Assembly (NCBI RefSeq): GCF_006539865.1
Contig: NZ_BJNV01000044.1
Location: 1-43,873 of the forward strand
Direction: 5' to 3'
DNA length: 43,873 bases
Origin: Zoogloea ramigera
Lineage (GTDB): Bacteria > Pseudomonadota > Gammaproteobacteria > Burkholderiales > Rhodocyclaceae
The position numbers and the translations under genes are program-made. Under the pieces are notes generated by a model. That model ran no database searches. It saw nothing but the letters and a program-made list of their open reading frames with translations, and was not told the origin of the DNA. Shown piece by piece: positions 4,489-16,132 of this stretch; within the stretch, counting starts at the first letter, position 1; every line of letters starts with the position of its first letter.

Positions 4489-6519
4489 TCACCTACCAGC
4501 ATCCGGGAGGCGAACCTTGTCCACCAACGCCAGCACCGCAGCGCTCGGAGGTGGCGTAAGCAGGCTGACGACAACGATAACCAGAAAACCAGTCGGCACG
4601 CCGAATACACCACAGGAGATCGGGTGAATGCCAAACCAGGCATTTCCCAGCCCACCACCGAAGAACGGATGAGTACGTACGATGTACAAGAGGGTTATGC
4701 CAAGGCCGGCGATCATGCCGCTGATCGCCCCCCACTTGTTCGCCCGCTTCCAGAAGATCCCCAGCACCAACGCCGGAAAGAACGCCGAGGCGGCAATCGA
4801 GAAGGCCAGGCCAACCATGAACAGGATGCTGTCGGGGCGAAGTGACGCAACCCAGGCCGCAATCACAGCCACCACCAGCAGCTGGGACTTGGTGATCACC
4901 AGGCGTCGCTGGGAGGACGCCTCCGGATTGATCACGCGATAGTAAACATCGTGGGACAAGGCGTGGGAGATGGTCAGCAGAAGACCGTCAGCCGTCGACA
5001 GCGCCGCCGCCAACCCCCCCGCCGCAACAAGCCCCGACACCACATAGGGCAGGCCAGCGATTTCAGGGGTCAGCAGCAGGATCGCATCACTGTTGAGGCT
5101 CAACTCGGCAAGCTGAAGAATTCCATCAGCGTTGATGTCCTCAATCTTGACGAGCCCGACCTTGCCCCACGACGCCACCCACGGGGGGAGCGAGGCAATA
5201 TGCGAGCCGATCAGGGTGCTGTACACCTCCCACTTCGCAAAAACGGCGTAGGCCGGTGCCGTGACATACAGCAGAAAGATGAAGAACAGCGTCCAGAACA
5301 CTGAACGTCGCGCGTCACGCACACTGGGCGTGGTGTAGTAGCGCATCAGGATGTGCGGCAAGCCTGCGGTGCCCACCATAAGCACGAAGCTCAGCGCGAT
5401 GAAGTTGAGACGCGCACTGTCGCGGGATGCCTGATCGGGGCCGGGATGTGCCTCGGCATGGGGTGGCGGCGGAACCGAGCGCTGCAGGCTTTCCTGACGT
5501 GCCCGCTCCCACTTGACCCGGGCCTCGTCCGGCGTGCGTGGAAGATCCCGCAGCGTGCGCTCCGCCGTGGCAACCTCCCGCGCCGGCGCCCCCTGGGTTC
5601 GCAGTTCGTTAACGCGCTGCATCTGCGCCTGACGCTCCACCGCGAGCGACTCGGGCAACTCGGAAATCTTGCGCGCCAGGTCATCGGCACGCTGTCGATA
5701 AAGGGCCCGCACGTCATTTTCCCGGGGCTCGGTGAACAACTCGACCTCCTTCACCCCAAGATCATGCAGCACCGTGCCATACACCGCCTGCGGGATGGGC
5801 ACGCCGGTTACCTTGTATGAAAGAATCACCACCGGCACCAGGTAGGCGATGATGAGAATCAGGTATTGGGCGACCTGGGTCCACGTCACCGCGCGCATCC
5901 CGCCCAGGAAGGAGCAAACCAGAATACCCGCCAGCCCGACGAACACCCCGATCTCGAACTCGATCCCGATGAAGCGGCTGGTGATGAGCCCGACCCCGTA
6001 GATCTGCGCCACCACGTACACGAAGCTCGCCAGCACGCCGGCAAAGACGCCGACCATCCGCGCAAAATGCCCCTCGTAACGGGCACCGAGAAAATCCGGA
6101 ATGGTGAATTCGCCGAACTTGCGCAAGAAGGGCGCCAGCAACAGGGCCACCAGCACATAACCACCGGTCCACCCGGTCACGAAAGCCAGGCCCTCAAAAC
6201 CCGCGTAGTAGAGCGTCCCCGCGAGCCCGATGAAGGATGCCGCACTCATCCAGTCGGCGGCGGTGGCCATGCCGTTGTAGAGCGCCGGCACCCGCCGCCC
6301 CGCGACGTAGTATTCCGACACGTCGGAGGTTCGGCTCATCACACCGATGAGGGCGTAGATCGCGATGGTCGAGAACAGGAAGATCTGCCCTATCCAGCGC
6401 GGCGCCAGCCCAAACCGCTCGGCCACCGCCAGAAACACCACCAGGCCGACAAAACCCGCCGCGTAAAGAAGGTAGTAGCGCCCGAGGCGCCGAAAAAGAA
6501 CGGATGCGGAACGCGTCAT
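4489..6519 (-). CDS. Na+:solute symporter, large subunit (VC_2705/ActP-like family)
   Basis: Inner-membrane secondary transporter of the SLC5/SSS superfamily, probably taking up acetate or another short monocarboxylate with Na+. The 676-residue protein has about 13-14 hydrophobic segments and the SSS pattern: a YYVAGRRVPALYNGMATAADWMSAASFIG stretch (about residues 70-98, broken here by ordinary family variation), FLGGMRAVTWTQ (204-215), and GLAAALSTADGLLLTISHALSHD later on. Between membrane segments, residues about 255-370 form a long charged insert with coiled-coil character ending in a Pro-rich stretch, a feature of this subfamily. It directly follows its small DUF4212 partner gene (9-nt gap). 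The substrate is inferred from the acs and CrbS-like neighbours, not from the sequence itself. Confidence 0.88.
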   Translation of the reverse strand: MTRSASVLFRRLGRYYLLYAAGFVGLVVFLAVAERFGLAPRWIGQIFLFSTIAIYALIGVMSRTSDVSEYYVAGRRVPALYNGMATAADWMSAASFIGLAGTLYYAGFEGLAFVTGWTGGYVLVALLLAPFLRKFGEFTIPDFLGARYEGHFARMVGVFAGVLASFVYVVAQIYGVGLITSRFIGIEFEIGVFVGLAGILVCSFLGGMRAVTWTQVAQYLILIIAYLVPVVILSYKVTGVPIPQAVYGTVLHDLGVKEVELFTEPRENDVRALYRQRADDLARKISELPESLAVERQAQMQRVNELRTQGAPAREVATAERTLRDLPRTPDEARVKWERARQESLQRSVPPPPHAEAHPGPDQASRDSARLNFIALSFVLMVGTAGLPHILMRYYTTPSVRDARRSVFWTLFFIFLLYVTAPAYAVFAKWEVYSTLIGSHIASLPPWVASWGKVGLVKIEDINADGILQLAELSLNSDAILLLTPEIAGLPYVVSGLVAAGGLAAALSTADGLLLTISHALSHDVYYRVINPEASSQRRLVITKSQLLVVAVIAAWVASLRPDSILFMVGLAFSIAASAFFPALVLGIFWKRANKWGAISGMIAGLGITLLYIVRTHPFFGGGLGNAWFGIHPISCGVFGVPTGFLVIVVVSLLTPPPSAAVLALVDKVRLPDAGR

Positions 6520-6528
6520 CGGCCGCTC

Positions 6529-6792
6529 TCAGCCCTCGCCACCGAGGCCATGACGCCGCTCAAGCCGGACCATCCAGCGGTCGTAGATCCAGACGATCAA
6601 CAGAAAAACGATCAAGGCGCCCTGCCCGGCCATGTAAAAGCCAAACGGCCAGCCGAAGAACACAATCTGGTTCATCTCGTCGGCGAACCAACCAGGCAAG
6701 AAGCTCACCGCGGCCCAGACGCTCAGGAGCACACCGGTCAGGCGTAAGGTCGACCGCCAGTAAGCCCGCTGTCTCGCCTCGGTGTCGTCCAC
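6529..6792 (-). CDS. DUF4212 small subunit of the Na+:solute symporter
   Basis: Short inner-membrane protein (87 residues) with two hydrophobic helices, about residues 15-35 and 45-68, separated by FADEMNQIVFFGWPFGFYMAGQG, which is typical of the DUF4212 (symporter small subunit) family. Such proteins are encoded directly before the VC_2705-type symporter, as here. The GTG at 6792 is chosen as start because the family begins near (M/V)DDTEARQ.YW and a GAGGAG ribosome binding site lies 5 nt upstream; there is no better ATG. The exact role (assembly or stability of the large subunit) is not established. Confidence 0.85.
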   Translation of the reverse strand: MDDTEARQRAYWRSTLRLTGVLLSVWAAVSFLPGWFADEMNQIVFFGWPFGFYMAGQGALIVFLLIVWIYDRWMVRLERRHGLGGEG

Positions 6793-6857
6793 GCACACTC
6801 CTCGATCCGGCGCTGCCGGCAGTTGATATCCGGCGCAGTATAGCTCCGGGCGCCGCC

Positions 6858-8267
6858 TCACAACTGATAACGGCCGCGCAGCCTGTCCTGCAGACGGCGA
6901 GCCTGGCGTAGGGACTCCTTCAGAAAAGCCCTCTCCAGCTCGTTCAGCTCATCCGGTGCAACCTGATTGGGAGGGGTGCCAGGCACCCGCTGGCGCCGCA
7001 GACGCAGCTGCAGGATGAACTCGAAAGCCTCTGACAGGGCCCCGACTTCCCGCGCCCCCCAGCGCAAGACAGCCCCCGCCGCCCGCAGACGCTCCACCGT
7101 GGCGGTCTCGGGCAGGCCCAGTTCCAAGGCGTAGATGCGCGCCGCGTCGACAAAAGGGCGCGTCCCGTCGCGCTTGAGATCCAGCCGCCCGCTCTCCCGG
7201 TCGACCACGAAGTCGCGGATGCGCCCCAGCGGCGGGCCGCTGCGCAGTGCGTTCTCCGCCATGAAGCGGAGGAACAAGGCATTGTCGGCCGCAGCAGCGA
7301 GCAGCCACCCACGGAGCGAATCGGCCAGCGCAACATCGCCGACCAGGGCCCGGAAGTCGAAAAAGATCGTCGCGTTGAGCAGGTCTTCGGCGCTCGCCGA
7401 GCGCATCCAGTCGGAAAAGCGACCACGCCACTCAGCCAGCGACAGGCACCAGCATGGGTTTCCCGCCATGATCCCGCCCTTGCACAAGGAAAATCCGCAG
7501 GCATCAAGCAGGATATTGACCCGCTGCGCGAAGGGAAGAAAGCGCGCCCGCAGGCTTTCCGCCTCGGCCTCGTCGGCGGCCAGAAATATCAGGCCGTTGT
7601 CCTGATCGGTGTGCAGGGTCTGCTCCAGCCGCCCCTCGGAGCCAAAAGCCAGCCAGCACCACGGAACCATGGGCAGCTCGAACTCGGCCTCGGCGATGTC
7701 GATGGCAGCCTGCGCGAGCAGATCGTTGAGCAGGGCGATCCACTCCCCCACGCGCCCGGCCTGTTCGCCCCCATCCACCAGCGCCCCCGCCCCGGCGCTC
7801 ACCTGCCGCGCGACGCTGGTGAGCGCAGCTTCATCGCGGACGGCCTGGATGCGCTCGATCAGATCGTCCGCCCGCGGGCGGCGCACCGCGTAAAGATCCT
7901 CCCGCGACACAACCCCCACCAGACGCCCGGCCTCATCCACCACCACCAGGCGACGCAGTCGATGACGGGCAAGCTGCAGACGCGCCTCGTGCACCCCGGC
8001 CGTTCGCGGCAGCGCAACAACCCCTCCGGTCATCACGCCGGCCACCGGCCCATCGAGACTTTCGGCGGGCAACGCGACCCGTTCGACGACGTCGCGCTGC
8101 GTGAGGATGCCCAGCGGCCGCCCGGTGACGGGCGCAACCACCACAGCCTCGGCCGCATCCTCGACGCACATGCGGCGAAGCACCTCACGAACAGCGGCCT
8201 CCGGCGACACCGACAGCGGCGCGCATCGGAGCAGCATCTCAAGCGAGCCCACCACGTGAGCCTCCAT
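6858..8267 (-). CDS. CBS-domain DUF294 putative nucleotidyltransferase
   Basis: Cytoplasmic 469-residue protein. Residues about 12-60 and 75-130 are two CBS domains (GILTQRDVVERV and GVVSREDLYAV are the typical ends), which usually bind adenine nucleotides. Residues about 160-310 are the DUF294 nucleotidyltransferase-like domain, with the GS motif FGSEGR (208-213) and the acidic pair D221/D223 in HTDQDNG; the DUF294 C-terminal domain follows to the end. The cyclic-nucleotide-binding domain found in some relatives is absent. The gene lies 7 nt after the exonuclease fusion and 65 nt before the DUF4212 gene. Proteins like this are recurrent neighbours of ActP-type symporters. A regulatory role in acetate uptake is an inference; the nucleotidyl substrate is unknown. 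Confidence 0.82.
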   Translation of the reverse strand: MEAHVVGSLEMLLRCAPLSVSPEAAVREVLRRMCVEDAAEAVVVAPVTGRPLGILTQRDVVERVALPAESLDGPVAGVMTGGVVALPRTAGVHEARLQLARHRLRRLVVVDEAGRLVGVVSREDLYAVRRPRADDLIERIQAVRDEAALTSVARQVSAGAGALVDGGEQAGRVGEWIALLNDLLAQAAIDIAEAEFELPMVPWCWLAFGSEGRLEQTLHTDQDNGLIFLAADEAEAESLRARFLPFAQRVNILLDACGFSLCKGGIMAGNPCWCLSLAEWRGRFSDWMRSASAEDLLNATIFFDFRALVGDVALADSLRGWLLAAAADNALFLRFMAENALRSGPPLGRIRDFVVDRESGRLDLKRDGTRPFVDAARIYALELGLPETATVERLRAAGAVLRWGAREVGALSEAFEFILQLRLRRQRVPGTPPNQVAPDELNELERAFLKESLRQARRLQDRLRGRYQL

Positions 8268-8274
8268 GGGACGC

Positions 8275-10440
8275 TCAGTACTTCACGCGGGCGTAGTAGG
8301 TCTTCTCGGATGCCCGGCGGGCTTCGCCGAGCGTCCGGATGCCCATCTCGGCGAGCAGCGGGATCATGCGCAGGAAGACCTCGCCGGTCACGATCGCGTC
8401 GCCGATGGCCGTGTGCCGGCCCATGATGTTCACCCCCATGCGTTCGCTGATCGCCTCGAGCCGGTGGGACTCCTGGGACGGGTGAATAACCGCCGACAGC
8501 AGCAACGTGTCGAGCACCGGCTGCTCGAAGCGGATCCCGGTGCTCTGCTCCTTCATCTGCAGGAAGCGCATGTCGAAGGCCGCATTGTGGGCCACCAGCA
8601 CGGTGTCCGCCGCAAAGGCGTGGAAGGCCGGCAGCACCCTGGCCATCGGCGGCTGGCCGACGAGCATCTCGGGCGTGATGCCGTGGATCTTGGTGGACGC
8701 CTCGGGGAGCTCCCGCAGCGGGTCGACCAGCTGATCGAAGGATTCCGAGCGGAGCAGCTTGCCATTGACGATGCGGGTCGCCCCGATCTGGATGATCTCG
8801 TCGCCCTCGGACGGATTGAGGCCGGTGGTTTCGGTATCGAAGACGGTGAAGGCGAGCTCCGAGAGTAGGCGGTCGTCCAGCTCGTGGCTCACCTCGGTCT
8901 GCTTGAAGAGGTCGAAATCGTAGTACTCGGGACGGCTGTCGCCCTTGAGATAGGCGGCGGCCACCACCTCTTCCTGGGGCAGCGCCGAGGGCAGCAGCAG
9001 GCGGAAGAAGGCGCGGTGCTGGGTTTTCTCGCGCTGCAGCCAGATCTCGCCGTCGTGACGGGCAATCACGTCCCGCACGGTGAGGGGCGAACTCTCGCCG
9101 GCGAAGCTCATCGGCTCGAGCTCCCACGACATCACGGTTTCGGTGCTCATCGCCTGCCCCGACCAGATGAGGTCGAGGTGCGCCAGGCGCCCGGCGCTGC
9201 TGAGGCGGAAACGCACCTCGCGGACTTCGAACTCGTCCGACAGCCGGCTCGCCAGATAGCTGATGGCCTGCAGCAGCGAGAAACTATCGACCTTCACCCA
9301 GACCGCCGGGTCCACGTCCTCCAGCTTGGTGGGCAGGCCGAGCTTCTTCTCGATGCGGCGCTGAGCCGCGGCGATCAGGTCGGCGCCGTGCATGTCGTCG
9401 AGGGGCCAGCGCGTCTTGAGGGAATCGGCAAAGGCGTTGGCGGTCTCCTCGAGCCGGCCGCTCATGGCCTGCACCTCGTCGCGGATCACCTTCAGGAAAC
9501 GGTCCTTCAGGTCCACATCGAGGTCGGGATACTCGAGCATCTCGGCCGCGGCGCGCAGGTTGGCCAGCGACGAGCGGCTGCCCTCGGTGACCGAATTGAG
9601 CAGCTGGTCGCGGCGGGTTTCACTCTCGAAGTTGCGGGTGATGTTGTCCAGCATCAGCACGAAGCCCGACACCGTGCCATCGGCGTCGCCCTCTGTGGTG
9701 CTCATCACCGGCGCCATCTGCACCCGCAGCAACTGGCCGGCGCGGGTCGTGGTGACAAAATTGGCCATCGGCTGGGAGCTCTGACGGCGGATGCGCTCCT
9801 GGATGCTCTCGAGGGCATGGACGATCAGGTTGCGCTCGAAAACCAGATAGATCGACCGACCCAGCCCGATGATCTCACCGCCACCGGCCGCGGTCGGCGC
9901 ATCCGAGAGCGCCTTGAACTGCAGCCGCGCCCGGTTGTTGTAGAGCAGGATGCGGCCATCGAGGTTGCACACGACGACGCTCTGATTGAGCTCGGACATC
10001 AGCGCCGCCAGCCGGTTGCGCTCCTCCTCGACCGACAGGCGCGCCTCGCGGATACGCGACTCCACGTCATCCTGCAGGCTCTGCCGCTGATCAGCCAGGC
10101 TATTCACGGCCTCGGCGATGCGCTGCAGCTCCGGCGAACCGGACGGCTTGAGCCGGCGCGACGGATCGGTACCCACCAACAGGCCAATCTCGTCGGCCAG
10201 CAGCGCTGGCGCCGCAATGCTGTCGTGGGCGAAGGATTTCATCAGGACCGCCGCCGCCCCCGCACCGACCATCCCGATCATGATCAGCAAACCCAGGCGC
10301 GGGTTGAGGATGGGCTCGAGCACCGCCCGCTCGTCGGCCCCGAAATCCCGCCAGAGGGCTACCCCGGCACCGCCAAGCACCCCCAGGACGAGCGCCGAAG
10401 CCCCGAGAATGACCAGCCCCTGCCTGGCCTTCGGGCTCAT
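8275..10440 (-). CDS. Membrane PAS/pseudo-histidine kinase fused to a DEDDh 3'-5' exonuclease
   Basis: A 721-residue fusion. Two membrane helices (about residues 8-30 and 50-70) are followed by a HAMP-like/coiled segment (76-140), a PAS domain (about 145-265; SVVVCNLDGRILLYNN), a DHp-like helix pair (270-330) and a divergent HATPase-like domain (335-485). Where a kinase would have its HELRTP phospho-acceptor motif, this protein has SVTEGSRSSLANLR and no histidine, and the ATP-binding N-box asparagine pattern is not seen, so autophosphorylation is doubtful. Residues about 525-700 are a DnaQ/epsilon-like exonuclease with all catalytic positions: D535 and E537 (FDTETTG), D623 (HNAAFDMRFL), H676 and D681 (RHTAIGD). 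Its start overlaps the REC-only regulator by ATGA, suggesting coupled synthesis. The function is unknown. Confidence 0.85.
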   Translation of the reverse strand: MSPKARQGLVILGASALVLGVLGGAGVALWRDFGADERAVLEPILNPRLGLLIMIGMVGAGAAAVLMKSFAHDSIAAPALLADEIGLLVGTDPSRRLKPSGSPELQRIAEAVNSLADQRQSLQDDVESRIREARLSVEEERNRLAALMSELNQSVVVCNLDGRILLYNNRARLQFKALSDAPTAAGGGEIIGLGRSIYLVFERNLIVHALESIQERIRRQSSQPMANFVTTTRAGQLLRVQMAPVMSTTEGDADGTVSGFVLMLDNITRNFESETRRDQLLNSVTEGSRSSLANLRAAAEMLEYPDLDVDLKDRFLKVIRDEVQAMSGRLEETANAFADSLKTRWPLDDMHGADLIAAAQRRIEKKLGLPTKLEDVDPAVWVKVDSFSLLQAISYLASRLSDEFEVREVRFRLSSAGRLAHLDLIWSGQAMSTETVMSWELEPMSFAGESSPLTVRDVIARHDGEIWLQREKTQHRAFFRLLLPSALPQEEVVAAAYLKGDSRPEYYDFDLFKQTEVSHELDDRLLSELAFTVFDTETTGLNPSEGDEIIQIGATRIVNGKLLRSESFDQLVDPLRELPEASTKIHGITPEMLVGQPPMARVLPAFHAFAADTVLVAHNAAFDMRFLQMKEQSTGIRFEQPVLDTLLLSAVIHPSQESHRLEAISERMGVNIMGRHTAIGDAIVTGEVFLRMIPLLAEMGIRTLGEARRASEKTYYARVKY

Positions 10441-10811
10441 GCCGGCAAGTCCAGCAGGGATTTAACCTTCGTCACCAGCTCCCGGGTCGAGAACGGCTTG
10501 GTCATGTAAGCATCGGCGCCCATCGCCAGGCCCTTGGTAATCTCCATCTCACGCCCCTTGGCGGTCAGCATCAGGATGCGCGTGCCCTGCAGCCCGGGAT
10601 CGGTGCGGATCTCCTGGCACACCTCGTAGCCATTCTTGCGCGGCATCATGATGTCGAGCAGGACCAGATCGGGCGCCTCGCTGCGGACCTTATCGATGGC
10701 TTCCTGGCCGTCCGTGGCGACACAAACGGTGAAGCCCTCGCGCTTCATCAGGAACTCCAGGGATATGACGATATTTTGTTCATCATCGGCGATAAGTATT
10801 TTTTTGGCCAT
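10437..10811 (-). CDS. REC-only (CheY-like) response regulator
   Basis: A single receiver domain of 124 residues. The acidic pocket D9/D10, phospho-acceptor D53 (LVLLDIMMP), T83 (MLTAKG) and K105 (YMTKPF) are all present, so it should be phosphorylatable. There is no DNA-binding or enzymatic output domain. The SLC5-type histidine kinase gene just upstream is the obvious phosphodonor. The 4-nt overlap with the downstream kinase-like/exonuclease fusion suggests that protein as a partner or output. The CrbR regulators described in Vibrio and Pseudomonas carry a LuxR-type HTH, so this protein is not a simple CrbR equivalent. The partner assignments are inferences from gene order. Confidence 0.9.
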   Translation of the reverse strand: MAKKILIADDEQNIVISLEFLMKREGFTVCVATDGQEAIDKVRSEAPDLVLLDIMMPRKNGYEVCQEIRTDPGLQGTRILMLTAKGREMEITKGLAMGADAYMTKPFSTRELVTKVKSLLDLPA

Positions 10812-10886: not shown

Positions 10887-13637
10887 TTATCCTGCGTCTT
10901 CCTTCCTTACAGCTGATTTCCCGCAAGGCATAAGAAATGAGAATGTCGCCCCTTCGCCCGGCACGCTCTCAACCCACAAGCGGCCACCGTAGTGCTCGAC
11001 GATCTGGCGGCTGATGGGCAAGCCGAGGCCGGTACCCTGGGGCTTGTCGGTCATCGTGTTACCCCCCTGGCGGAATTTCTCGAAAACAACCCGCTGCTCC
11101 TCCGGCGTCAGGCCCGGGCCATTGTCGCGGACATCCACCTGCAGCCCCTCATCGGTCTCACAAAGGCTCAGCCGCACCTGGCCACTCCCCCGCACGACGA
11201 ACTTCACTGCGTTCGACAGGAGGTTCAACACCACCTGCACCAGCCTGTCCCGATCGGCAAAAAGAACCGGCACTGCGGGCGGCAAGGACATCTCCAGCGT
11301 CACCCCCTTGTCCCGGAACAACTGGCTGGTAGCCGCGGCCCCCTGCTCGACAACCTCGAGCAGACTCACCTCGTCATCCACCCAGTCGGCGTGCCCCGAC
11401 TCGATCTTGGCCATGTCGAGCACCTGGTTGACCAGCCGCGTCAGGCGCTCGGTTTCGCTGACGATGATGGCCAGAAAGCGCTGCCGGTCTTCCACATCGA
11501 TGCCTGGATCTTCGAGCAACATCTCGGAAAACGCTCTGATCGAGGTCAGCGGTGTGCGCAATTCATGGGTCACGGACGACATGAAGTCGTCCTTCAGCCG
11601 ATCGAGCTCCTTGAGGCGCTCGTTGGCACTGCGCAACTCGCGGGTCGCCTCCTCCAGTTCGCGGGATTTCTGCTCCAGACGCCTGGAATACGCCCGCACC
11701 TGGGAAGCCTCATCGAGGATGTTCATCACCTCGTCGAGCCCAAGCGGCTCCTCCTGCACCACCGAGGCCACAATCACCCGCGCCGACGCGCTGCCGATCG
11801 CCCCGGCGAGGGTGGTCTCGGCAAAATGAACCAGCCCGGCGTCGGCCTGCAAGGCCTCCCGGCTCACGCCCCGCGAACGGGCGTAGTCGTCGAAGGCATT
11901 GGCCGCGCGCTCCCGGCCCAGGAAGCGGCCGAGCAGCGGCAGCAGATCGCCCACCCGGGCGCTGCCCCGCCAGAAAGCCCCGTCCGACGGCCGCCCCTGT
12001 TTGAACACGTCGACGAACAGGGTCGCCTGCCCCGCCTCGATGGCAGTCGGCTGACGCATCAGCGACACCCACACGTAGGCCCCCAGGTTCGCCAGCATGC
12101 TCCAGAACAGACTATGGGCCAGCGGATCGAGGCCCTGCATGCCGAACAGCTCCTGCGGCCGAAGCAGATCCAGCCCGAACAAGCCGTTCTGCAGGAAGTC
12201 ACCCGGCAACCAGCCAGACTTGGCGAAGGACGGCAGCAGCAAGGTGTACAGCCACACCGCAAAGCCAGACGACAAACCCGCCACCGCCCCGGCCCGTGTC
12301 CCGCCGCGCCAGTACATGCCGCCGAGCATCGCCGGTGCAAACTGAGCCACCGCGGCAAAGCTGATCAGGCCAATGCTCACCAGCGCATGGGCCTCCCCCG
12401 CCAGCCTGAAGTACAGGTAGGCCAGCAGCAGGATCAGCACGATCGCCCCGCGCCGGATGCCCAGCAGCACGCCGGACACATCCTCCTGGCCCTGCAGCGC
12501 CAGCCAGCGGTAACGCAGCAGGAGCGGCATCACCAGATCGTTGCAGACCATCGTGGACAGCGCGATCGTCTCGACCACGATCATCCCGGTTGCTGCCGAC
12601 AGACCACCGATGAACACCACCAGCGCCAGCCAGTCGTGCCCGAACACCATCGGCAGACGAAGCACGAAGGTGTCGGCATCCACCTGCTGCCCCGCAAACG
12701 ACATCAAGCCGCCCAGCGCGATCGGCAGCACGAACACGTTGATCAGCAACAGATACAGAGGAAACAGCCAGATCGCCCGCCGCAGATGGTTCTCGTTGAC
12801 GTTCTCGACTACCGTCACCTGAAACTGGCGGGGCAGGAACATCACCGCCAGCATCGACAGCAGGGTCAGCGCAAACCAGTTGGCGTAACCGTTACCGCCC
12901 GCCCCCATGCGCATCAGGGCCTGCAACTGGGGCTCGCGGGCGGCCCGGGAGAAGAGATCGCCAAACCCGTCGAAGAGACCGAAGGTGACAAAAACCCCCA
13001 CCGCCACGAAAGCCACCAGCTTGACCAGCGACTCGAAGGCGATCGCCGCCACCAGCCCCTCGTGGCGCTCGGTGGCGTCGAGGTGGCGGGTGCCGAAGAG
13101 GATCGTGAAGGCCGCCATCGACAGCGCCACGTAGAAGGTGGTGTCGGCCAGCCAGGGCAGCGCACCGCGCCCGGCCGACACAACATCGTCAGGCGGCACA
13201 AGGATCGCAAAACTTACCGAGAGCGCCTTCAGCTGCAGTGCGATGTAGGGAATCACCCCAAGCACCGCGATCACGGTGACGAGCCCGCCGAGCAGGTGAC
13301 TTTTGCCGTAGCGGGAGGCGATGAAGTCGGCGATGGAGGTGATGCGGTTGGTCTTGCCGATGCGGACCATTTTCAGCATCACGAACCACCACAGGGCGAC
13401 CGCCAGGGTCGGCCCAAGGAAGATCGGCACGAACCCGAGGCCCGACGAGGCCGCCCGCCCGACACTGCCGTAATAAGTCCAGGTGGTGCAATACACCGCC
13501 AGCGACAGCGCATAGATGGTCGGATTGGCGATCACCGAGCGGCCGGCATCGGCGCGTTTGTCGCCAAAATACGCCACTGCGAACAGCAGCAGCAGATAAA
13601 GGAAGGATGCCGCGACGATCACCGGACCGGTCAACAC
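10887..13637 (-). CDS. CrbS-like sensor histidine kinase with SLC5 transporter domain
   Basis: A 916-residue membrane sensor. Residues about 1-545 form an SSS/SLC5 transporter-like domain with about 13 membrane segments (for example ALSLAVYCTTWTYYGSVG near residue 47). Residues about 555-635 contain a STAC linker (VGDLLPLLGRFLGRERAANAF), a coiled coil follows, and the kinase core occupies about 680-905: H-box SVTHELRTPLTSIR with phospho-acceptor H691, N-box VVLNLLSNAVKF, G1 DVRDNGPGL and G2 GTGLGLPIS. No C-terminal receiver is fused. SLC5-STAC kinases of the CrbS type control acetate use and acs in several proteobacteria, and acs lies just upstream here. Whether this domain still transports solute cannot be told from the sequence. 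Confidence 0.9.
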   Translation of the reverse strand: MLTGPVIVAASFLYLLLLFAVAYFGDKRADAGRSVIANPTIYALSLAVYCTTWTYYGSVGRAASSGLGFVPIFLGPTLAVALWWFVMLKMVRIGKTNRITSIADFIASRYGKSHLLGGLVTVIAVLGVIPYIALQLKALSVSFAILVPPDDVVSAGRGALPWLADTTFYVALSMAAFTILFGTRHLDATERHEGLVAAIAFESLVKLVAFVAVGVFVTFGLFDGFGDLFSRAAREPQLQALMRMGAGGNGYANWFALTLLSMLAVMFLPRQFQVTVVENVNENHLRRAIWLFPLYLLLINVFVLPIALGGLMSFAGQQVDADTFVLRLPMVFGHDWLALVVFIGGLSAATGMIVVETIALSTMVCNDLVMPLLLRYRWLALQGQEDVSGVLLGIRRGAIVLILLLAYLYFRLAGEAHALVSIGLISFAAVAQFAPAMLGGMYWRGGTRAGAVAGLSSGFAVWLYTLLLPSFAKSGWLPGDFLQNGLFGLDLLRPQELFGMQGLDPLAHSLFWSMLANLGAYVWVSLMRQPTAIEAGQATLFVDVFKQGRPSDGAFWRGSARVGDLLPLLGRFLGRERAANAFDDYARSRGVSREALQADAGLVHFAETTLAGAIGSASARVIVASVVQEEPLGLDEVMNILDEASQVRAYSRRLEQKSRELEEATRELRSANERLKELDRLKDDFMSSVTHELRTPLTSIRAFSEMLLEDPGIDVEDRQRFLAIIVSETERLTRLVNQVLDMAKIESGHADWVDDEVSLLEVVEQGAAATSQLFRDKGVTLEMSLPPAVPVLFADRDRLVQVVLNLLSNAVKFVVRGSGQVRLSLCETDEGLQVDVRDNGPGLTPEEQRVVFEKFRQGGNTMTDKPQGTGLGLPISRQIVEHYGGRLWVESVPGEGATFSFLMPCGKSAVRKEDAG

Positions 13638-14173: not shown

Positions 14174-16132
14174 TTACTTGAGCTGTTCCAGGATCGCCGG
14201 GTTTTCCAGCGTCGAGGTGTCCTGGGTGATCTCCTCGCCCTTCGCCAGCTGGCGGAGCAGGCGGCGCATGATCTTGCCCGAACGAGTCTTCGGCAGGTTT
14301 TCACCGAAGCGGATGTCCTTGGGCTTGGCGATCGGGCCGATTTCCTGGCCGACCCAGTTCTGCAGCTCCTTGATCACCGCGGCAGCTTCGTCGCCGGTCG
14401 GGCGGGCGCCCTTCAGGACCACGAAGGCCACGATCGCCTCGCCGGTCAGGTCGTCCGGACGGCCGACCACGGCAGCCTCGGCAACCTTCTCGTGGGCCAC
14501 CAGGGCGGATTCGATTTCCATCGTGCCCATGCGGTGACCGGAGACGTTCAGCACGTCGTCGATGCGGCCGGTAATGGTGAAGTAGCCGGTGTCCTTGTCG
14601 CGGATCGCGCCGTCGCCTGCCAGGTACAGCTTGCCCTGGAAGTCAGCCGGGTAGTAGGACTTGACGAAACGGTCGGGGTCGCCCCAGATGGTACGGATCA
14701 TCGACGGCCACGGACGCTTGACCACCAGGATGCCGCCCTGGCCCCAGGGCACGTCGGTGCCGGTCTCGTCGACCACGGCGGCCTGGATGCCCGGGAAGGG
14801 CAGCGTGCAGGAGCCGGGGATCAGCGGGGTGGCGCCGGGCAGCGGAGTGATCATGTGGCCACCGGTTTCGGTCTGCCAGAAGGTATCGACGATCGGGCAG
14901 CGGCCGCCGCCGATGTTCTCGTGGTACCACTCCCAGGCAGCCGGGTTGATCGGCTCGCCGACCGAACCCAGCAGGCGCAGGCTGGAGAGATCGTAGTTCT
15001 TGGGATGCACGGCCGGGGTGTTGTCGGCGGCCTTGATCAGCGAACGGATGGCGGTCGGCGCGGTGTAGAAGATGTTGACCTTGTGGTCCTGGATCATCTT
15101 CCAGAAACGGCCGGCATCCGGGTAGGTCGGAACGCCTTCGAAGACGATCTCGGTCGCACCGCAGGCCAGGGGGCCGTAGGTGATGTAGGTGTGGCCGGTG
15201 ACCCAGCCAATGTCGGCGGTACACCAGAAGACATCGTTCGGCTTGATGTCGAAGGTGTACTGCATGGTGAGGATGGCGTGCAGCAGGTAGCCGCCGGTGG
15301 AGTGCTGGACGCCCTTCGGCTTGCCGGTGGAGCCGGAGGTATAGAGCAGGAACAGCGGGTGCTCGGCTTCGACCCATTCCGGTTCGCAGGTGTCGGCCTG
15401 GGTGGCGGTGAGTTCGTCCACCCAGATGTCACGGCCGGCGACCATGGCGGTTTCCTGGCCGGTACGCTTCACGACGAGGACGCTCTTGATGGTCGGGCAG
15501 CCGCTGGCCAGAGCCTCGTCGGCGATGGACTTGAGGGGCAGCGCCTTGCCGCCACGGTTCTGGCCATCGGAGGTGATCAGCAGGACCGCACCGGCATCGT
15601 TGATGCGGTCAGCCAGCGACTGGGCGGAAAAACCGCCAAACACGATGGAGTGGGTGGCACCGATACGGGCACAGGCCTGCATCGCGACGACGCCCTCGAC
15701 GGACATCGGCAGGTAGATGACGACGCGGTCACCCTTCTTGACGCCCTGGCTCTTCAGCGCGTTGGCAAACTTGCAGACGCGATCAAGGAGCTCTTTGTAG
15801 GTGACCTTGGAAACGTCGCCCTTGTCACCTTCGAAAATCAGCGCGACCTTGTCGCCGAGGCCCTTGTTGACCTGACGATCGAGACAGTTGTACGAAACGT
15901 TCAGCTTGCCGTCGGCGAACCACTTGAAGAACGGTGCATTGCTCTCGTCGAGAACCTGGGTGAAGGGCGTCTGCCAGTCGATCAGCTCCTTCGCCCGCTT
16001 GCCCCAGAAACCTTCGTAATCCTGATCTGCTTCGGCGCAGAGGGCCTTGTACGCTTCCATGCCCGACACGGCAGCGTTCTTCACCACCTCTTCAGACGGA
16101 TAGTAGAACTTCTGGGTGGTTTCGTTCGTCAT
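14174..16132 (-). CDS. acs: Acetyl-CoA synthetase
   Basis: AMP-forming acetate:CoA ligase that converts acetate, ATP and CoA to acetyl-CoA. The product has 652 residues, the normal length. The adenylate-forming signature [12 protein letters not shown] is present, as is the acetyl-CoA synthetase-specific region around WWQTETGG-like [10 protein letters not shown], and the C-terminal domain ends with [12 protein letters not shown], in which the lysine near residue 620 is the site acetylated in known Acs enzymes. The ATG at 16132 has a GGAGAGG ribosome binding site. It is transcribed divergently from the msh-like operon and ends at a clear terminator. The CrbS-like sensor encoded downstream makes two-component control of this gene likely. 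Confidence 0.97.

Follow-up and report, generated by a model that had tools for sequence, protein, structure and literature searches.

A Predicted Membrane-Bound DEDDh Exonuclease Fused to a Pseudo-Histidine Kinase Accompanies a Receiver-Only Response Regulator in Zoogloea ramigera and Its Relatives

Results

Architecture and Spread of the Fused Protein

The DNA analyzed here, termed the window, is a stretch of 43,873 nucleotides from Zoogloea ramigera (contig NZ_BJNV01000044.1). On its minus strand, a gene for a response regulator that consists of a receiver (REC) domain only is followed by a single open reading frame (ORF) with an ATG start, whose product joins membrane helices, a PAS domain, and a histidine-kinase-like module to a DEDDh exonuclease (Table 1). 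The two genes overlap by ATGA, and 7 bases separate the stop codon of the fusion gene from the start of a gene for a putative DUF294 nucleotidyltransferase. As set out below, the broken sensor kinase within this fusion probably listens to a small signaling protein.

An earlier note on this DNA, made from the letters alone, had described this architecture, and the protein of 721 amino acids (aa) bears it out. Hydropathy indicated two hydrophobic segments (residues ~4-31 and 39-71). Exactly two are present in 74 of the 80 near rows and in 31 of the 39 far rows of the alignments described below, and conservation in the near alignment is lowest in the membrane part of the fusion. An AlphaFold model calculated from a 50-row alignment (predicted local distance difference test score 78.4; predicted template modeling score 0.37; relative domain placement uncertain) comprises, in this order, two N-terminal helices, a long coil, the PAS domain, a two-helix DHp, an alpha/beta CA domain, and the exonuclease. 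WalK was the best Foldseek match to this model (477 columns). The HAMP-like segment was assigned by inspection and fold only, as Pfam HAMP did not match the fusion; above the cut-offs, Pfam found nothing besides RNase_T, and 36 of 50 family members gave a PAS_4 match (E ≤ 0.1). The RPEYYDFDL linker is invariant in the 50 rows, D508 and F509 being present in all 39 far rows.

An artificial joining of two genes by a frameshift or an assembly error, which the earlier note had considered, is virtually ruled out. In 79 of the 80 loci retrieved from genome_contigs, the frame stays open over the entire match up to the stop codon, and whole fusion ORFs were also found on single-contig genomes. L060 and L068 have an open frame truncated at the contig start. 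In L018, a metagenome-assembled genome, the membrane part is separate from the remainder, a split that does not lie at the exonuclease.

The note had also considered the joining of a nuclease to a sensor unusual. The architecture is real, but it is no local oddity, since the fusion is a widespread family. Matches were obtained in 103 of 150 genomes in the family survey (E ≤ 1e-40, a few of them partial), in 208 of 369 in the class survey (E ≤ 1e-20, chiefly ordinary DEDDh enzymes), and in 58 of 398 in the phylum survey (E ≤ 1e-28). Because the class and phylum surveys show the strongest matches, their counts of fusions are lower bounds. The class survey contains fusions with an intact catalytic set at at least 20 places in 17 genomes besides the window, and kinase and exonuclease are both spanned in at least 45 of the 398 genomes of the phylum survey, including that of the window and four with an eroded DHp. 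The near set consists of 80 loci kept of 523 genome_contigs relatives; without the split L018 and with the window, it gives 80 rows. With 98% identity to L001 and L021, the host stands close to Zoogloea. The far set comprises 39 fusions, namely 20 places from the class survey and, from the phylum survey, 19 loci that were read with 1.5 kb flanks and include three from the window's own family or order. Our searches of an open library turned up no paper that we recognized as describing a kinase-exonuclease fusion, and papers outside it could describe the form.

A profile of 50 fusion rows matched VicK over both DHp and CA (E 2.5e-9). In the profile alignment, E286 is placed on the phospho-acceptor His of the neighboring active kinase (SVTEGSR on SVTHELR), in line with the claim of the earlier note that the module lacks this residue. 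Moreover, in the window fusion the Asn of the N box is replaced by R399 and the Asp of the ATP site by W426, the GxGLG motif is lost, and the G1 and G2 boxes are broken. His occupies the acceptor position in none of 119 rows (80 near and 39 far); Glu is found there in all 80 near rows and in 29 of the 39 far ones, so that the invariance of E286 is limited to the near family. R289 is kept in 80/80 near and 38/39 far rows, R399 in 80/80 near rows, and W426 in 79/80 near and 39/39 far rows; the Asn of the N box survives in 3/39 far rows. The kinase-like part has the DHp and CA folds of a histidine kinase and is predicted to be devoid of kinase chemistry of its own. The fusion shares the order transmembrane helices-HAMP-PAS-DHp-CA and the fold with WalK/VicK, from which it differs by the loss of the H, N, and G boxes and by the C-terminal exonuclease.

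Pfam RNase_T covers residues 533-689 (E 9.7e-34), and Foldseek aligned the exonuclease part to PolC with a root-mean-square deviation of 1.6 Å over 188 columns at 34% identity; DnaQ was matched as well. The closest solved relatives are the DNA exonucleases PolC, DnaQ, and DinG. All five catalytic residues named in the earlier note are in place, and the motifs ExoI (D-x-E), ExoII (D), and ExoIII (H-x4-D) are complete in 80/80 near rows and 39/39 far fusions. The DEDDh active site is intact and conserved in the fusion, which predicts nuclease activity. The exonuclease fold and the catalytic set are shared with the proofreading-type enzymes PolC and DnaQ, whereas the membrane and sensory domains and the metabolic gene neighbors belong to the fusion. 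In three fusions of one genus (L133, L135 at 8118-10193, and L136), the PAS domain and the pseudo-kinase are kept despite the loss of the catalytic residues; neither a REC nor an SLC5 kinase gene was found in these stretches, and the L135 gene adjoins genes for an impB/mucB-family protein and an M16 peptidase.

The REC-Only Regulator Tracks the Pseudo-Kinase

The 92 REC genes measured encode proteins of 122-130 aa, too short to contain an output domain. D9, D10, and D53 are kept in 109 of 110 REC rows, that is, in all rows covering these positions. At the near loci (n = 80), a REC gene was found 79 times, an SLC5-type kinase gene 78 times, a symporter gene 73 times, acs 54 times, DUF294 30 times, and DUF4212 26 times, several loci being cut by contig ends. 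Among the best fused places of the class survey (at least 20), 13/20 have REC, 13/20 the SLC5 kinase, 12/20 both, and 9/20 DUF294; L093, L120, L121, L125, and L126 lie on short contigs or close to contig ends. At the phylum-survey loci, among the matches listed, REC was present at 18/19, DUF294 at 14/19, and the SLC5 kinase at 12/19. The order of the genes varies between kinase-REC-fusion, REC-fusion-kinase, and REC-kinase with a divergent fusion (L119). The link between fusion and REC therefore outlives rearrangement. How often the exonuclease lies beside CrbS-like kinases, a question raised in the earlier note, is answered by the SLC5-type kinase beside the fusion at 78 of 80 near loci; the REC-only regulator and DUF294 are linked to the fusion as much as this kinase.

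Control loci gave a different picture. A REC gene of at least 45% identity was found at none of 11 exonuclease places without a pseudo-kinase, six of which were also read with wide flanks; one of them (L134) has a receiver match of 27% beside another kinase. Likewise, no such REC was found near any of 30 DUF294 loci, nor was a REC found near L132, a PAS-exonuclease without the kinase part.

The family f223, with 13 places listed, comprises both states. REC accompanies all four fusions with R289 and W426 (L198, L231, L232, L237) and none of the nine in which these residues are lost or the module is gone. In L233-L236, R289 and W426 are lost and the DHp is shortened (REC 0/4), and in L226-L230, DHp and CA are gone (REC 0/5). 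The latter have the architecture transmembrane helices-HAMP-PAS-exonuclease; their open frames have 467-512 aa, and their neighbors are symporter and DUF294 genes. At the 12 newly read f223 places, symporter and DUF294 genes are present throughout and acs is present at 11, L227 being cut. The five catalytic residues are kept in all 12 proteins, the kinase module being eroded in four of them and absent from five. The control places, the f223 series, and the fact that the His position is mostly held at Glu instead of drifting suggest that the pseudo-kinase serves the REC protein.

Neighboring Genes

As the earlier note had claimed, the fusion gene lies in an acetate context, acs and a symporter gene being part of the same gene run. 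Pfam found HisKA and HATPase_c in the SLC5-type kinase, and SSF did not match. Its N-terminal part matches the SLC5-STAC structure 10ED of CbrXA (E 1e-66; PMC13022988); the match ends at chain residue 451 (single sequence) or 517 (profile), short of the STAC part. The window thus resembles the CrbS/CrbR (MxtR/ErdR) systems in having an SLC5-type sensor kinase in the context of acs and an ActP-type symporter. However, CrbS is described as a hybrid kinase, whereas no receiver domain was seen in the kinase of the window, and ErdR/CrbR bind DNA, whereas the neighboring regulator is REC-only. The genome contains 13 GerE matches, and CrbR may be encoded elsewhere in it. The symporter of the window has 676 aa as compared to 547 in the TIGR03648 profile, i.e., ~130 more, and inspection revealed an added charged stretch at about residues 250-370.

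Anti-phage defense was considered and dropped, as PADLOC gave generic DEDDh and receiver matches, two matches to the candidate family PDC-S48 lie within the exonuclease part only, and the neighborhood is metabolic.

Table 1. Features of the window and of loci used for comparison (L numbers; coordinates within the respective locus).
Feature	Coordinates	Strand	Basis
Fused protein, 721 aa: two transmembrane helices, HAMP-like, PAS, pseudo-histidine kinase, DEDDh exonuclease	8275..10440	-	ORF, Pfam, model
Two membrane helices and short loop, residues 1-70	10231..10440	-	hydropathy, model
HAMP-like helix-connector-helix and coil, residues 71-140	10021..10230	-	model; WalK best fold match
PAS domain, residues 153-266	9643..9984	-	model; PAS_4 matches in relatives
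DHp helices, residues 268-342; E286 replaces His, R289 kept	9415..9639	-	alignment, model
Degenerate CA (ATPase-fold) domain, residues 345-486; N box R399, G1 box W426-S-G-Q-A	8983..9408	-	profile, alignment, model
Conserved RPEYYDFDL linker preceding the exonuclease, residues 503-511	8908..8934	-	alignment
DEDDh exonuclease, residues 531-700; D535, E537, D623, H676, D681	8341..8850	-	Pfam, fold, alignment
REC-only response regulator, 124 aa, D53 phospho-acceptor, without DNA-binding domain	10437..10811	-	Pfam, length
SLC5-type sensor histidine kinase, H/N/G boxes present, related to CbrA	10887..13637	-	Pfam, 10ED match
acs, acetate-CoA ligase, 536 bases upstream of the kinase gene	14174..16132	-	domain searches
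CBS-DUF294-DUF294_C putative nucleotidyltransferase, GSEGR...TDQDN motif	6858..8267	-	Pfam, motif
DUF4212, symporter small subunit	6529..6861	-	domain searches
VC_2705-family sodium/solute symporter	4489..6519	-	TIGR03648
Exonuclease-CBS-DUF294-DUF294_C, single ORF	L137:8028-10190	+	domain search
Exonuclease-CBS-DUF294-DUF294_C, single ORF	L138:6415-8592	-	domain search
Exonuclease-CBS-DUF294-DUF294_C, single ORF, beside SSF symporter	L238:1825-3924	-	domain search
DEDDh-like protein, 211 aa, encoded directly after the second DUF294 gene	L186:6935-7570	-	window's own genome, G000:C9
Second DUF294 protein, 660 aa, cNMP and CBS domains	L186:7574-9556	-	window's own genome, G000:C9

Relation to the Separate Exonucleases of Pseudomonas

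The earlier note had mentioned a separate exonuclease gene in comparable neighborhoods of Pseudomonas, and such an arrangement is in print: the P. putida genes pp_0353, which encodes a putative exonuclease, and pp_0354, which encodes a CBS protein, lie in one operon; the promoter of pp_0354 is bound by ErdR, and the standalone PP_0353 is linked to MxtR/ErdR (PMC9927547). Like the window, this operon combines an RNase_T exonuclease and a CBS protein with acetate/pyruvate use, but the exonuclease stands alone and no pseudo-kinase is reported. In a tree of 66 exonuclease domains (midpoint root, several weak inner forks), 20 DUF294-neighbor rows form a block of their own (100/100). Grouped in the other block are the pseudo-kinase fusions together with ordinary DEDDh enzymes, L104 (a separate exonuclease), and two DUF294-fused rows, L107 and L108, which are the same places as L137 and L138. 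The PP_0353 type presumably belongs in the 20-row block of partners of long DUF294 proteins. As the tree separates these partners from the fused forms, we do not claim orthology and regard PP_0353 as an analogue or a distant relative of the fused exonuclease. A separate DEDDh exonuclease (265-aa frame) also adjoins an acs homologue (64% identity) in L109, in whose short flanks no DUF294 was found.

PA3232-PA3235 were about 16-fold up during growth on propionate; the same paper contains a second experiment, in which PA3233-PA3235 went 2-fold down once propionate was added (PMC9765439). Pflu5625, annotated as cAMP-binding, CBS, and nucleotidyltransferase protein, belongs to the CrbS/R regulon, and its mutant is described as lacking a phenotype (PMC5715377). 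The authors of the P. putida work stated that they were aware of no functional characterization of PP_0354 in any strain (PMC8402216).

Discussion

Taken together, these results suggest, with a probability that we put at about 0.58, that the fused protein may be the output arm of a two-component pathway, in which the phosphorylated REC protein would dock on the pseudo-kinase and gate the membrane-tethered exonuclease. The SLC5-type kinase would sense the transport of a small carboxylate, probably acetate, which we infer to be the controlling signal, and would phosphorylate the REC-only protein. Judging from co-occurrence and conservation, phospho-REC would dock on the DHp of the fusion, which would thereby act as a receiver, as known for DivL and DivK~P. 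Docking, together with the PAS domain, would alter the activity of the predicted 3′-5′ exonuclease, which may act on a nucleic acid or a nucleotide mark tied to the uptake and activation of acetate and pyruvate, often with the DUF294 nucleotidyltransferase as a putative partner.

The closest parallel is DivL of Caulobacter, which binds DivK~P, is without kinase activity, and requires its PAS domain for phospho-specificity (PMC4211667; PMC5361649). Like the fusion, DivL combines PAS and a histidine-kinase fold lacking the acceptor His with a REC-only partner, and in both cases information would run from the regulator to the kinase fold, the pairing here being seen at the level of the genes. However, the acceptor position is occupied by Tyr in DivL and by Glu here, and DivL acts on the kinase CckA, whereas the output here would be the fused exonuclease.

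Several observations weigh against a REC-gated output. The grouping of f223 by R289 and W426 was made post hoc, its loci are related, and the module may have been either lost or gained. Within this family, the REC of L237 is at 44% identity and the L237 DHp is also shortened, and the SLC5 kinase is absent within 15 kb of L231, L232, and L237. In addition, REC was not found at 7/20 class-survey fusions, of which L093, L120, and L121 lie on short contigs or at a contig end, while L116, L117, and L130 were read with ~7-8 kb flanks on both sides and L125 with 8 kb on one side. In the latter four, the DHp is recognizable and REC is absent from the stretch retrieved. A second fusion with REC exists in the genome of L116 (L142) and in that of L117 (L123), and the search in L125 and L130 covered the vicinity of the fusion. 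L197 likewise has no REC within 1.5 kb. The PAS domain rather than REC could be the main input, and in one genus the catalytic residues of the fused exonuclease are lost (L133, L135, L136). Finally, the Δpp_0353 mutant showed no phenotype on 20 mM acetate (PMC9927547). In transposon fitness data cited by the same authors, pp_0353 matters on 5 mM acetate, a retest being impossible for them (PMC9927547; PMC8402216).

What the exonuclease would act on is a separate issue. DEDDh enzymes include RNases, and the exonuclease may trim mRNAs of carbon metabolism at the membrane, which we consider possible, albeit on the unlikely side. The P. putida authors have speculated on mRNA decay for PP_0353 (PMC9927547), but the closest solved relatives are DNA exonucleases, and no RNA-binding domain was found by Pfam in the fusion. 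It is also conceivable, though unlikely in our estimation, that a target, for example the symporter or the 3′ end of an RNA, receives a nucleotide or an oligonucleotide from the DUF294 protein, that the DEDDh enzyme removes this addition, and that the sensor sets the balance. In favor of this pairing, one ORF encodes RNase_T, CBS, DUF294, and DUF294_C in at least three class-survey genomes of three families, the single proteins (L137, L138, L238) having 699-725 aa; no such joint ORF was found among the 30 DUF294, 12 f223, and 80 near loci. Moreover, in the class survey, 19 of the 30 best DUF294 loci have a separate DEDDh gene in their flanks, DUF294 accompanies the fusion at most of the listed phylum-survey loci and at every newly read f223 locus, and the nucleotidyltransferase motif G-S-x-x-R...D-x-D is kept in 52/52 matches covering it. 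In P. putida, Δpp_0353 and ΔactP-I are impaired on pyruvate and Δpp_0354 has no effect (PMC9927547), which would fit, as the eraser would be needed to free a modified transporter. On the other hand, tblastn detected no DUF294 in the 8-kb flanks of 50/80 near loci, and a conserved DUF294 partner in the window's genus is a catalytically dead DEDDh-like protein, in which Asn replaces the ExoI Asp and also forms the end of the ExoII motif (12/12 loci read from the genus); the pairing is hence not always in need of erasing.

This dead partner, in which two metal-ligand Asp residues have become Asn, and the three fusions retained after loss of the catalytic set would also suit an exonuclease domain that is chiefly a binding module with vestigial catalysis. 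Such a role is improbable, given that the five residues are kept in 80 near rows, 39 far fusions, and 12 f223 proteins.

The addition and removal of a nucleotide can be reconciled with a REC-gated exonuclease as the output arm and would name its substrate. In the combined form, the target nucleotidylated by DUF294 would take part in the uptake or activation of carboxylates, and phospho-REC, acting via the DivL-like pseudo-kinase, would gate the exonuclease that strips the mark; this we regard as rather doubtful, the three exonuclease-DUF294 fusions having made it somewhat likelier. If true, such a pathway would be a two-component system with the reversal of protein or RNA nucleotidylation by a DEDDh enzyme as its output.

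The outputs of two-component systems are mostly DNA binding or second-messenger enzymes. The gene set described here suggests that a nutrient signal could switch a nuclease directly in bacteria. If a pseudo-kinase relays the state of a receiver to the nuclease it is fused to, this widespread gene set would carry the DivL principle, the wider use of which was left open by its discoverers (PMC4211667), over to an output that is an enzyme. Such a relay would likewise provide a handle on the unexplained phenotypes of pp_0353/pp_0354 and on DUF294-type proteins.

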